Source of the DNA: Bacillota bacterium
GTDB lineage: Bacteria; Bacillota; Sulfobacillia; JABLXB01
NCBI GenBank assembly: GCA_013178305.1
Contig: JABLXB010000007.1
Location: forward strand, 62,001-126,000
Direction: 5' to 3'
Length of the DNA stretch: 64,000 nt
Shown: positions 18,881-22,375 of the stretch, in pieces
Layout: every line of letters starts with the position of its first letter
Numbering within the stretch: the stretch's first letter is position 1
Translations under genes and position numbers: made by a program
Notes under the pieces: model-generated
What the model was told of the DNA's origin: nothing
The model's input: only the letters and a program-made list of their open reading frames with translations
Databases searched by the model: none

Positions 18881-20461
18881 CTAGCCCAGCCGTTCCGCAA
18901 TCGCCTTGACCTTCCGGAGCAGGTCATCCAGCCCAGTCGCAAACACCAGGATCAGCCTCTCCAGGTTTATCCGATCGGGCACGTCCACGACGTCGGGAAG
19001 CGTCGACCGCGCGGCCAGCACGGCCCTCAGGTCGCGGGAGTAGTCGTCGTCACTCTGGCGGTAATCGGGGGGAGCCGGCATCGCGGCTACCACCAGGCCC
19101 GCCTTTGCGCATGCCCCCAGTACCCGTGGGTTGTTCCGGAGGTTCATCACGCAGCGTGTGTCGGGGAAGAACTCACGCGCGATGAGTAGCGTCCCCGCCA
19201 TGTAGATCGAAGCGCCCATCTCGGGCTGGCCGGTCGGCACCACACGGTCTTTGACCCTGACGAGGCGGCCCGGGATCGCCGCAACGTCCCTGGTCTCACG
19301 CGCCTCCAGTGATGCGTAGGCGATGTTGGCCCCAATTTCGGGGATGAGCGGAAGGATGCCCGCCCTCTCCAGCGCTTTCACCGCCTCAGCAAGTTCCTCA
19401 CAGAGCGTCCTCTCGGCCGGGGTGCGCGTGTCCGACTTGAGTGCCAGCGCGTTAAAGAAGACCTCCCAGAACCGGTCGACTGGAGGGGGGGTAAGCGGTT
19501 CGCGACGCCCGTCGTCGCCTATCCACCATCGCCCGGAGCCGGCGGGCACGACTCGCCCGCACACGGCCGCCTCGATTCCGTGACTCCGGAACGCCTCTAG
19601 CAGGTTTTCCGCCCGGGCGGGGTCGCACGTGAGCACGAGAGTACCTTCACTGATGACCTCGTACGGGTCGAGCCCAAAATGGTCACACACTGCGGCTACG
19701 TCCGCGGGCACCGGCACCTTCGCGCGATCGATCTCAAGACCGGCCCCCGACGCCTCGGCTACTTCCCAGAGGCCGCGGGCCACTCCGCCTTCGGTGGCGT
19801 CGTGCATCGCGTGAACGCCGCCCGCCCTGGTAGCGACCTCGGCGTCCGCAACTACCGACATCTCCTTGAAGCGTAGACGGGCGCGGTCCACTAGGTCCGG
19901 CCCGACACCGGCTGCCAACAGCCTTTCGCCCAGTTCAGAGGCGAGTATTCCCGCGGCCTCTATCGCCGCGCCCTTCGTGAGCACCACCACGTCACCCTCG
20001 CGGGCGCCGCCGGGAGTGATTACCTCACGGCCGGTCCCCCACACCGTTATCCCGCCGATTGTCGGAACGACCACCGCCCCGTAGAATCCGGTGTGGCCAC
20101 CGACGACGGCAATCCCGAGTTCACGCGCGCAATCGCTGATGCTCCTCACCAGCCGCTCCGTATAGTCGTCCAGGGTTCCGGGAGGGAGGAGGAGTGTATA
20201 CGTCATGAACCCGGGTTTCACGCCCAGCACCGCCACGTCGCTTGCGCCGATGTGAACGGTGATCCAACCGTAGTCCTCAGGGGAAGTCGTCGGACCCGGG
20301 AATATGGGGTCCTCGGCCACCACCAGGTATTCCTCTCCGAATTTGAGTACCGCGGCGTCAACACCCATCTTAGGGCCCACGACTACGTGTGGGGAATGCG
20401 CCCCTGTGTGGGGCAGGATTGCGCGACGGAAGAAGTCGTCGTTTACCTTACCTATCACCAT
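18881..20461 (-). CDS. AIR-synthase-like (HypE/ThiL superfamily) – ThiN fusion protein
   Basis: A 526-residue two-domain cytoplasmic protein. Residues 1-335 form an AIR-synthase-type ATP-binding fold: MGVDAAVLKFGEEYLVVAED at the start, GASDVAVLGVKP, GGHTGFYG, and a HypE/SelD-like MHDATEGGVARGLWEVAE (219-236). Residues 350-526 are a ThiN domain: IGANIAYA, DVAAIPGRLVRVKD, MGASIY, MNLRNNPRVL and VVDVPDRINLE. ThiN makes thiamine monophosphate and is usually fused to ThiD in archaea. ThiL, a thiamine-phosphate kinase, belongs to the same superfamily as the N-terminal domain. AGGAGGG precedes ATG. A TPP riboswitch with terminator lies upstream, so a thiamine role is strongly indicated. The exact reaction of the N-terminal domain is inference. 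Confidence 0.85.
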   Translation of the reverse strand: MVIGKVNDDFFRRAILPHTGAHSPHVVVGPKMGVDAAVLKFGEEYLVVAEDPIFPGPTTSPEDYGWITVHIGASDVAVLGVKPGFMTYTLLLPPGTLDDYTERLVRSISDCARELGIAVVGGHTGFYGAVVVPTIGGITVWGTGREVITPGGAREGDVVVLTKGAAIEAAGILASELGERLLAAGVGPDLVDRARLRFKEMSVVADAEVATRAGGVHAMHDATEGGVARGLWEVAEASGAGLEIDRAKVPVPADVAAVCDHFGLDPYEVISEGTLVLTCDPARAENLLEAFRSHGIEAAVCGRVVPAGSGRWWIGDDGRREPLTPPPVDRFWEVFFNALALKSDTRTPAERTLCEELAEAVKALERAGILPLIPEIGANIAYASLEARETRDVAAIPGRLVRVKDRVVPTGQPEMGASIYMAGTLLIAREFFPDTRCVMNLRNNPRVLGACAKAGLVVAAMPAPPDYRQSDDDYSRDLRAVLAARSTLPDVVDVPDRINLERLILVFATGLDDLLRKVKAIAERLG

Positions 20462-20497
20462 TCGACCCTCCTGGCTGTGGATTTCAGGGGCTCCGGA

Positions 20498-20530
20498 AAA
20501 CGGAAAGCCACCCCGGGTCGGGAGTGGCTT
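20498..20530 (-). terminator. Riboswitch-controlled intrinsic terminator
   Basis: On the minus strand AAGCCAC (20530-20524) pairs with GTGGCTT (20511-20505), followed by TCCGTTTTCC. It sits between the TPP aptamer and the coding start and is the likely expression platform. Confidence 0.75.
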
Positions 20531-20561
20531 GGGTACAGGCCAGATCTTGACACCATACTTG

Positions 20562-20648
20562 ATCGTCCCTGCGCAGGCATTACCCTGATCAGGTTCCTCG
20601 GGTCAGGCGCAAGCCGCCTTTCTCAGCCCTCCAGAGCTCCCCGTCAGT
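20562..20648 (-). promoter_or_regulatory. TPP riboswitch (thi-box)
   Basis: The minus strand carries all conserved parts in order: ACGGGGAGC, GGGCTGAGAAAGGCGGCTT, GACCC, GAACCTGATCAGGGTAATGC, then CTGCGCAGGGA. A terminator hairpin follows, so TPP should shut off transcription of the AIRS-ThiN gene. A possible -10 (TATTAT) lies just upstream near 20651-20656. Confidence 0.93.
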
Positions 20649-21026: not shown

Positions 21027-21998
21027 ATGAGACGACTGTTGGGGAAGAAACCGGTCACGCGCGCCGCCTTGCGCCTCGCGACGATTGCGGTAATCGTAAC
21101 CGCCGTTCTCGCATCGGCGACGGGGTGCAGCCTGCGCTTGTTCCGGAGACCGGCGCCCGCGGGCCAGGAACCCACCCTCACGTTGTTCTCGCACAAAGAC
21201 AACACCACGAAGCAGATCAAACTCGAGGAGTACATCCAGGGAGTGGTGGCCGCGGAGATACAGCCCGACTGGCCCATGGAGGCGCTGAAAGCGCAGGCTA
21301 TCGTGGCGAGGACCTTTACTCTCCAGAAAAGGGACGAGGGCACGGTCAGGCCGATTCACGGCACCGACGCCTGTGACAGCAAGGACCACTTCCAGGCATA
21401 CGATCCGTCGAGGATCAACGAGAACGTCAAGCGCGCCGTGCAGGAGACCCGGGGGATGGTCATACTGTTCGGAGGGAAGCCGATACGCGCGTGGTTCCAC
21501 TCCAACTCGGGTGGCAAGACCGCCACTGCGCAGGAAGGCTTGAACTTCACGCAGGAATCCGCACCGTACGCTGTACCGGTGGATGACCCCATGTCACTCC
21601 AGAACGCGCCCGCGGACCAGAAGTCATGGACCGCCACGTTCAGCGCCGGCGACCTGAGCGGGGCTGCCGCGAAACTTGGCAAGAGCGTGAGCGGGGTCAA
21701 GTCCGCCTCCATCGGGAAGAAGGGGCCCTCAGGCCGCGCGCTGACCATCGTAATCAACGGACAGGAGTTTCCCGCAGCCGAACTGCGGACCAGCCTTGGG
21801 CCTGAGAGGATGAAATCGACGCTCCTGGATTCCGTGAGTGTGTCTGGTGGCAAGGTCGTCATGAAGGGGCGCGGCTGGGGTCACGGTGTAGGCATGTCCC
21901 AGTGGGGCGCCGAGGCGATGGCCAAAGCGGGGAAGAAGGCGGAGGACATCATCAAGTTCTACTTCAAGGGTGTCGATCTGACGAAGATGTGGCAATAG
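21027..21998 (+). CDS. spoIID: SpoIID/LytB-domain sporulation lipoprotein
   Basis: A 323-residue membrane-anchored protein with a hydrophobic N-terminus and lipobox-like ATGCS (Cys34). The SpoIID domain has LEEYIQGVVAAEIQPDWP, ALKAQAIVARTFTL, a HSNSGGKTA block, and the C-terminal signature GRGWGHGVGMSQWGA. SpoIID is a lytic transglycosylase that cuts glycan strands lacking stem peptides during forespore engulfment, together with SpoIIP and SpoIIM. GGAGGG precedes the ATG. It is a single gene bounded by a terminator. The catalytic Glu region (VVAAEI) is present. SpoIID-like paralogues exist in spore formers, so strict orthology is not certain. Confidence 0.88.
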   Translation: MRRLLGKKPVTRAALRLATIAVIVTAVLASATGCSLRLFRRPAPAGQEPTLTLFSHKDNTTKQIKLEEYIQGVVAAEIQPDWPMEALKAQAIVARTFTLQKRDEGTVRPIHGTDACDSKDHFQAYDPSRINENVKRAVQETRGMVILFGGKPIRAWFHSNSGGKTATAQEGLNFTQESAPYAVPVDDPMSLQNAPADQKSWTATFSAGDLSGAAAKLGKSVSGVKSASIGKKGPSGRALTIVINGQEFPAAELRTSLGPERMKSTLLDSVSVSGGKVVMKGRGWGHGVGMSQWGAEAMAKAGKKAEDIIKFYFKGVDLTKMWQ

Positions 21999-22204: not shown

Positions 22205-22230
22205 CTCGATTGGGCCCCCGAAATGTTCCT

Positions 22231-22352
22231 CCTTCCACGCTTACGAGGTTAGCTGACGGATTCGGGTTGAAGAAGTAACCCTACCCTGCTCTCGCAGGGA
22301 TTCACCCCGGTGTACTGGGTCCCCCGTTCCCTCTGAAGGGATTCAGCGTTCA
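22231..22352 (-). promoter_or_regulatory. c-di-AMP riboswitch (ydaO/yuaA type)
   Basis: The minus strand shows the ydaO motif in order: AACGCTGAATCCC, GAACGGGGGACCCA, GGGGTGAATCC, AGGGTTACTTCTTC, and the invariant CCGTCAGCTAACCTCGTAAG followed by CGT. These riboswitches bind cyclic di-AMP and usually turn off potassium-uptake or cell-wall genes. Here it has a strong promoter and a terminator but no open reading frame follows on this strand; the next gene, spoIID, faces it tail to tail. Confidence 0.92.
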
Positions 22353-22375
22353 ACGACACCCGTACTGTTGTTATC

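Follow-up and report, generated by a model that had tools for sequence, protein, structure and literature searches.

An AIRS-ThiN fusion gene behind a TPP riboswitch in a Bacillota bacterium: a candidate thiamine or thiamine monophosphate kinase

The fusion gene, its leader and its genome

The window analysed here is the whole stretch of 64,000 nucleotides from contig JABLXB010000007.1. Its minus strand carries, at 18881..20461, an apparently monocistronic ORF (ATG at 20461) for an AIRS-ThiN fusion protein of 526 amino acids. By direct reading, a ribosome-binding site, AGGAGGG (20466..20472, minus strand), stands four bases 5′ of the ATG. Farther upstream a TPP riboswitch aptamer (RF00059; 20549..20653, minus strand) was identified by cmscan (65.2 bits, E 1.5e-10; gathering score 54.3), in agreement with the initial annotation. 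The terminator that had been proposed between the aptamer and the gene is plausible: a possible intrinsic terminator or expression-platform hairpin with a 10-bp stem is present (20505..20530, minus strand); however, its U-tract is weak, such a hairpin is expected by chance 0.5 times per region (about once in two regions of this size) and the fold has a z-score of −0.65.

The next gene on the minus strand starts 488 bp downstream of the fusion gene, and the window ORFs that were read in its surroundings (12–28 kb) include no further thiamine genes. The window also contains a c-di-AMP riboswitch (22223-22358, minus strand; 110 bits), which is not closely followed by a convincing gene on its own strand; a plus-strand SpoIID-like gene (21027-21998) lies downstream of this riboswitch.

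The N-terminal AIRS domain (about residues 1–335; 19457..20461, minus strand) is recognized by Pfam AIRS (67 bits) and AIRS_C (87 bits), by its likeness to HypE and ThiL folds and by a family signature. It is followed by a ThiN domain with an altered set of motifs (residues 356–519; 18905..19396, minus strand), which matches PF10120 with 119 bits (above the cut-off of 25). The AlphaFold model of the fusion (pLDDT 92, pTM 0.74) is confident across nearly the whole length. The same two-domain gene recurs in Moorella, Megasphaera, Fibrobacter, a Truepera MAG and others; thus the joining of the two domains in one gene, as annotated initially, is not an accident of assembly or frame.

The source genome (G000; G codes denote genomes and L codes loci) is 97.7% complete. 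On contig 8 it has an operon ThiD-ThiM-ThiE-ThiL headed by a riboswitch. Its ThiL is canonical (profile score 308 bits), ThiE, ThiM and thiamine pyrophosphokinase (TPK) score 175, 299 and 148 bits, and ThiC is present as well. There is no gap in the known thiamine steps of this genome from HMP and HET onward, and the fusion is therefore an addition with its own switch. It would work beside the canonical ThiE, ThiL and TPK and offer a second route to TPP under riboswitch control, instead of being the sole route.

Sequence features of the two domains

Judged by its sequence, the AIRS domain is an unnamed branch of the PurM/ThiL/HypE/SelD superfamily, whose members are listed in the literature as PurM, PurL, SelD, ThiL and HypE (PMC4210487). 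The window protein stays below the cut-off of every named NCBIfam equivalog, scoring 111.4 bits with HypE (TIGR02124, cut-off 251.6), 89.7 bits with ThiL (TIGR01379, cut-off 184) and 75.3 bits with SelD (TIGR00476, cut-off 125). None of the named families searched covers this branch, and we found no paper in the openly available literature that describes one of its proteins in thiamine metabolism. Superposition of the AIRS part on known structures gave a TM-score of 0.83 for the HypE target and 0.75 for ThiL, so the comparison with ThiL that had been suggested yields a match in fold, but HypE is closer.

Of the acidic positions of the superfamily metal/ATP site, D35, D51, D75, D221 and E272 are kept in the window protein, whereas the Asp of the ThiL GGDT motif is replaced by His123 (GGHT) and the Asp of ISDGL by Glu224. 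W332, near the AIRS C-terminus, aligns with the terminal aromatic residue of ThiL. The VEGVHF loop of ThiL, whose His is substrate-binding, is absent from the family profile alignment; a shorter loop, DPIFPGP, stands there and has no His. HypE gives both the best NCBIfam score and the closest structure, and the earlier description of the N-terminal domain as HypE-like and not ThiL-like is borne out. A SelD-type N-terminal catalytic Cys/Sec was looked for, and there is no Cys within residues 1–100. The HypE-type C-terminal Cys is absent too: the AIRS part continues into ThiN, and the protein ends in AERLG.

A survey with one genome per species gave 80 loci. The family occurs in Bacillota, Chloroflexota, Thermodesulfobacteriota, Spirochaetota and archaea. 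An alignment of 33 members shows 44 invariant positions, among them G33-x-D35, D51-P52, HI-x-AS-D75, GHT (122–124), TKG, HAMHDATE-x-G and E272-G273; F331-W332 is nearly invariant, and HAMHDATEGG serves as an invariant signature of the branch. Long frames in G277 and G008 were inspected for extra domains; Pfam found only AIRS in them, and the excess probably comes from reading the frame through ahead of the true start. Among 239 genomes sampled from the phylum, members score above 310 bits with the family profile (13 genomes), and a sister AIRS family, the nearest relatives outside, mostly 200–280 bits (∼65 of the 239 genomes). The source genome has a paralogue from the sister family (L002; G000:C7:44994-45974), which adjoins an ECF S component (PF07155).

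By their motifs the aligned ThiN domains separate cleanly into two sets. ThiDN, the stand-alone ThiN proteins beside AIRS genes (Dehalococcoidia, archaea) and the structures 2pb9 and 2php have GxSxH, DRxxEP and GKEP-type motifs in common, while the window protein and every close fusion have GxSx[H/Y], MPxPxxxRQ and PDRxNLE instead (MPxPxxYRQ and PDRINLE in the window sequence). By the pattern used, the DRxxEP type is found in all other aligned ThiN domains and the GKEP type in all but one. In the window ThiN the fold is kept, as is the Arg (PGR), and the position of the catalytic His is a Tyr; these two positions correspond to the catalytic Arg320 and His341 of Pyrobaculum calidifontis ThiDN. 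A more distant fusion, L026, is intermediate, with the DRxxEP-type motif and LEP kept and a Tyr at the His position. This gene (L026:439-2838), which has a TPP riboswitch at 375-489, is a triple fusion of AIRS, ThiN and an isochorismatase domain.

Since three catalytic-type motifs are replaced by a new conserved set and ThiE is present in all fusion genomes checked, ThiN of the window type has probably been repurposed; conservation of the new set implies that the site is probably changed and not lost. A role as the TMP synthase of the cell was rejected, as every fusion genome tested has ThiE. Stand-alone ThiN of the catalytic type was found in genomes with no ThiE over the cut-off (G092, G093 and G103).

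These data bear directly on the original proposal that ThiN makes TMP and the AIRS domain phosphorylates it to TPP, with substrate transfer inside a single protein. Two domains of fitting families do stand behind a TPP riboswitch, analogous ThiD-ThiN and ThiD-ThiE fusions are known, and ThiN of L026 is near the catalytic motif type. However, in the window protein and the close fusions other motifs stand in place of DRxxEP and G.GKEP, and the active-site His is either kept or exchanged for Tyr. Normal thiE and thiL genes were both found in the source genome; with enzymes for both of the last two steps already in place the proposal is not supported, and a bifunctional enzyme is, in our estimate, quite unlikely. 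Among genomes with the same domain pair, all those tested for ThiE have it, and ThiL is present for 13 of 16 fused genes.

A sensor or regulator, in which ThiN would sense TMP or thiamine as it does in archaeal ThiR and the AIRS domain would give the output, fits the conservation of the altered motifs in their new form and a canonical pathway that is complete and leaves no enzymatic gap. It agrees poorly with the AIRS active site, where conservation within the family is among the highest, and no DNA-binding domain was found; such a function seems improbable.

Family loci and the distribution of ThiL and TPK

Besides the window, a TPP riboswitch lies directly upstream of the gene or at the operon head at more than 20 loci with fused and unfused members (L009, L010, L013-L016, L020-L026, L028, L029, L031, L033-L035, L039 and L066, plus G171; the scan left out L027). 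L009 is the Moorella thermoacetica homologue, and L066 is unfused and comes from Desulfotruncus arcticus. None was found at the gathering score at L011, L012 and L017-L019, and the sister AIRS family has none at 16 loci. The 99 immediate neighbours of family genes that were scanned include ThiN (22), thiamine-binding protein PF01910 (12), ThiE (9), ThiD (7) and ThiC (2). The general link to thiamine metabolism drawn at the outset is supported by riboswitches and by ThiE, ThiD, ThiN and ThiC neighbours.

The operon order ThiE-ThiC-ThiL is found in G064, G066, G094 and G096. The corresponding operons are ThiE-ThiM-ThiC-[AIRS-ThiN] in G004 and ThiE-ThiC-[AIRS] in G072, both genomes without ThiL, so that the AIRS protein takes the usual slot of ThiL. 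G171, also without ThiL, has a riboswitch-headed cluster of AIRS, ThiG, a ThiH-like radical-SAM protein, ThiF, ThiE, ThiC, a thiamine-binding protein, ThiD, a permease (PF02133), ThiM, ThiE, a HAD phosphatase and TPK. This cluster (L140) carries nearly the whole thiamine pathway, and the HAD protein in it may be a TMP phosphatase. The HAD phosphatase of several family operons, together with TPK, could replace TMP kinase.

Two further features of family loci were seen. Downstream of the AIRS-ThiN gene in Moorella and relatives (L009, L010, L011 and L013) come an IF-2B family gene (probably MtnA) and genes of phosphorylase-like and AhcY-like type, and in L009 a class II aldolase-like gene as well. 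This set resembles one for salvage of 5′-deoxyadenosine, a by-product of ThiC and ThiH. In a Desulfoscipio MAG, CRISPR repeats (L024:112-737) lie close upstream of a riboswitch-AIRS-ThiD-ThiE operon.

The operons also allow other substrates to be considered. The AIRS domain might phosphorylate the thiazole alcohol, as a ThiM substitute, or another precursor, with the ThiN fusion placed beside the condensation step as in yeast THI6. Five riboswitch operons (L024, L025, L035, L039 and L066) hold AIRS, ThiE and ThiD without ThiM, and the search for ThiM at E 1e-15 gave no match in 29 of 48 family genomes; yet ThiM shares an operon with the fusion in L015 and L016, is part of the G171 cluster and occurs in 19 of the 48 genomes, our source genome among them. 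We consider this substrate unlikely, and replacement of ThiM was rejected. An extra AIR synthase that supplies ThiC, whose substrate is AIR, would fit the position of ThiC directly upstream of the gene in L015 and L020; however, 13 of 48 family genomes (some of them incomplete) have no ThiC match, and those genomes that were inspected for PurM showed a frame of its type. AIR supply was accordingly rejected as well and is very improbable.

ThiL was found over the cut-off in 30 of 50 family genomes, and those without it mostly have TPK. In a comparison covering the clade of the window and two spirochaetes, all 15 unfused close relatives are in genomes with TPK and without ThiL; among the 16 fused relatives, 13 are in genomes with ThiL and 13 in genomes without TPK. 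On supported branches there were at least three changes in the fusion state of ThiN, and all three independent contrasts with support point the same way (p = 0.25), too few for significance.

This pattern would be expected if the partner set the acceptor, that is, if AIRS alone phosphorylated TMP (replacing ThiL in TPK genomes) and AIRS with the altered ThiN converted thiamine to TMP (salvage in genomes with ThiL and without TPK). It is in line with PF01910 thiamine-binding proteins encoded next to AIRS in those Desulfobacterota and Methanolobus that have ThiL and no TPK. Against it, the window genome and L016 combine the fusion with both ThiL and TPK, G218 has the fusion with TPK and without ThiL, L011 and L015 have neither enzyme, the ThiN partner in Dehalococcoidia is of the catalytic type, and the independent contrasts are just the three mentioned. 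We regard such a division as doubtful.

Across the phylum sample ThiE was found in all 13 family genomes. ThiL is present in 8 of these 13 versus 62 of 153 other genomes with ThiE (p = 0.16), so there is no anti-correlation between the family and ThiL in this sample, and 90 of 94 genomes with ThiE and TPK but without ThiL lack the AIRS family. Simple replacement of ThiL as a general rule across the phylum was rejected for want of enrichment where ThiL is missing. Two MAGs, G063 (99% complete; identical gene coordinates indicate that it is the same genome as G160) and G004 (94%), have the fusion and ThiE and neither ThiL nor TPK. The other AIRS proteins of both appear, by frame length, to be of PurL, PurM and HypE/SelD type, with no ThiL among them.

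Possible function and relation to known systems

Taken together, the sequence comparisons lead us to favour, tentatively and with somewhat less than even confidence, a thiamine or TMP kinase with a repurposed ThiN domain, encoded by a gene that TPP represses. TPP would repress the fusion gene via the riboswitch. The AIRS domain would use ATP to phosphorylate a thiamine compound, most likely TMP (giving TPP, as ThiL does) or thiamine. ThiN, no longer making TMP, would bind TMP or thiamine, either presenting the substrate to the kinase or acting as a regulatory site. TMP is favoured as the acceptor because of the two genomes without ThiL and TPK and the replacement in the operon slot; free thiamine is also possible given the association of fused genes with absence of TPK. 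Points against the kinase reading are that the source genome already has both ThiL and TPK, that ThiL is present in 30 of 50 family genomes, with no anti-correlation in the phylum sample, that the VEGVHF loop and the Asp of GGDT are missing, that a HAD phosphatase with TPK could take the place of TMP kinase, and that the pattern of fused genes and ThiL has just three supported independent contrasts behind it.

The initial suggestion of a new ThiL substitute thus survives in part. Two fusion genomes without ThiL and TPK, unfused relatives without ThiL and the operon slot in two genomes agree with it; the phylum-wide distribution does not. Its members may form a second type of thiamine-phosphate kinase, in a family that is widespread. 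A broader statement, that this superfamily branch is a second thiamine-phosphate kinase family, that ThiL has been displaced in many anaerobes and that fusion to a repurposed ThiN tunes the choice between TMP and thiamine, is possible but not probable.

If the protein is a thiamine or TMP kinase, it would close the gap in TPP synthesis in genomes that have ThiE without ThiL, in a few cases also without TPK, and predictions of pathways and auxotrophy would be corrected. In its altered form, ThiN would clearly exemplify the conversion of a biosynthetic enzyme domain into a module for ligand binding.

Among known relatives, the sister AIRS family differs from the present family in its signature (GEDxxx...SxDPITGA); fusions to ThiN were not seen in it, and the 16 loci scanned carry no TPP riboswitch. 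HypE (TIGR02124; PDB 3vys) is closest in structure and NCBIfam score and has a similar D.T.GG motif; unlike HypE, the window protein misses the family cut-off, has no C-terminal Cys tail and belongs with a TPP riboswitch and thiamine operons, not a hyp context. With ThiL (TIGR01379; PDB 3c9t, 5dd7), whose mechanism and active site have been described (PMC6416309), it shares the AIRS fold, some of the acidic metal-site positions, the C-terminal aromatic residue, the pathway and sometimes the operon slot. It differs from ThiL in lacking the VEGVHF loop and its His, in having GGHT for GGDT and HDATEGG for IDISDGL, in the fusion to ThiN and in a score below the cut-off. The second domain is of the same family as the ThiN thiamine-phosphate synthases (PF10120; PDB 2pb9, 2php; ThiDN) and keeps the GR arginine, but has Tyr at the active-site His and MPxPxxYRQ/PDRINLE in place of DRxxEP/GKEP. 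Archaeal ThiR, an HTH-ThiN repressor, is a precedent for a non-catalytic ThiN in thiamine control; in contrast to ThiR, the window ThiN is joined to an ATP-dependent enzyme domain and not to a helix-turn-helix, and control would lie with a riboswitch.
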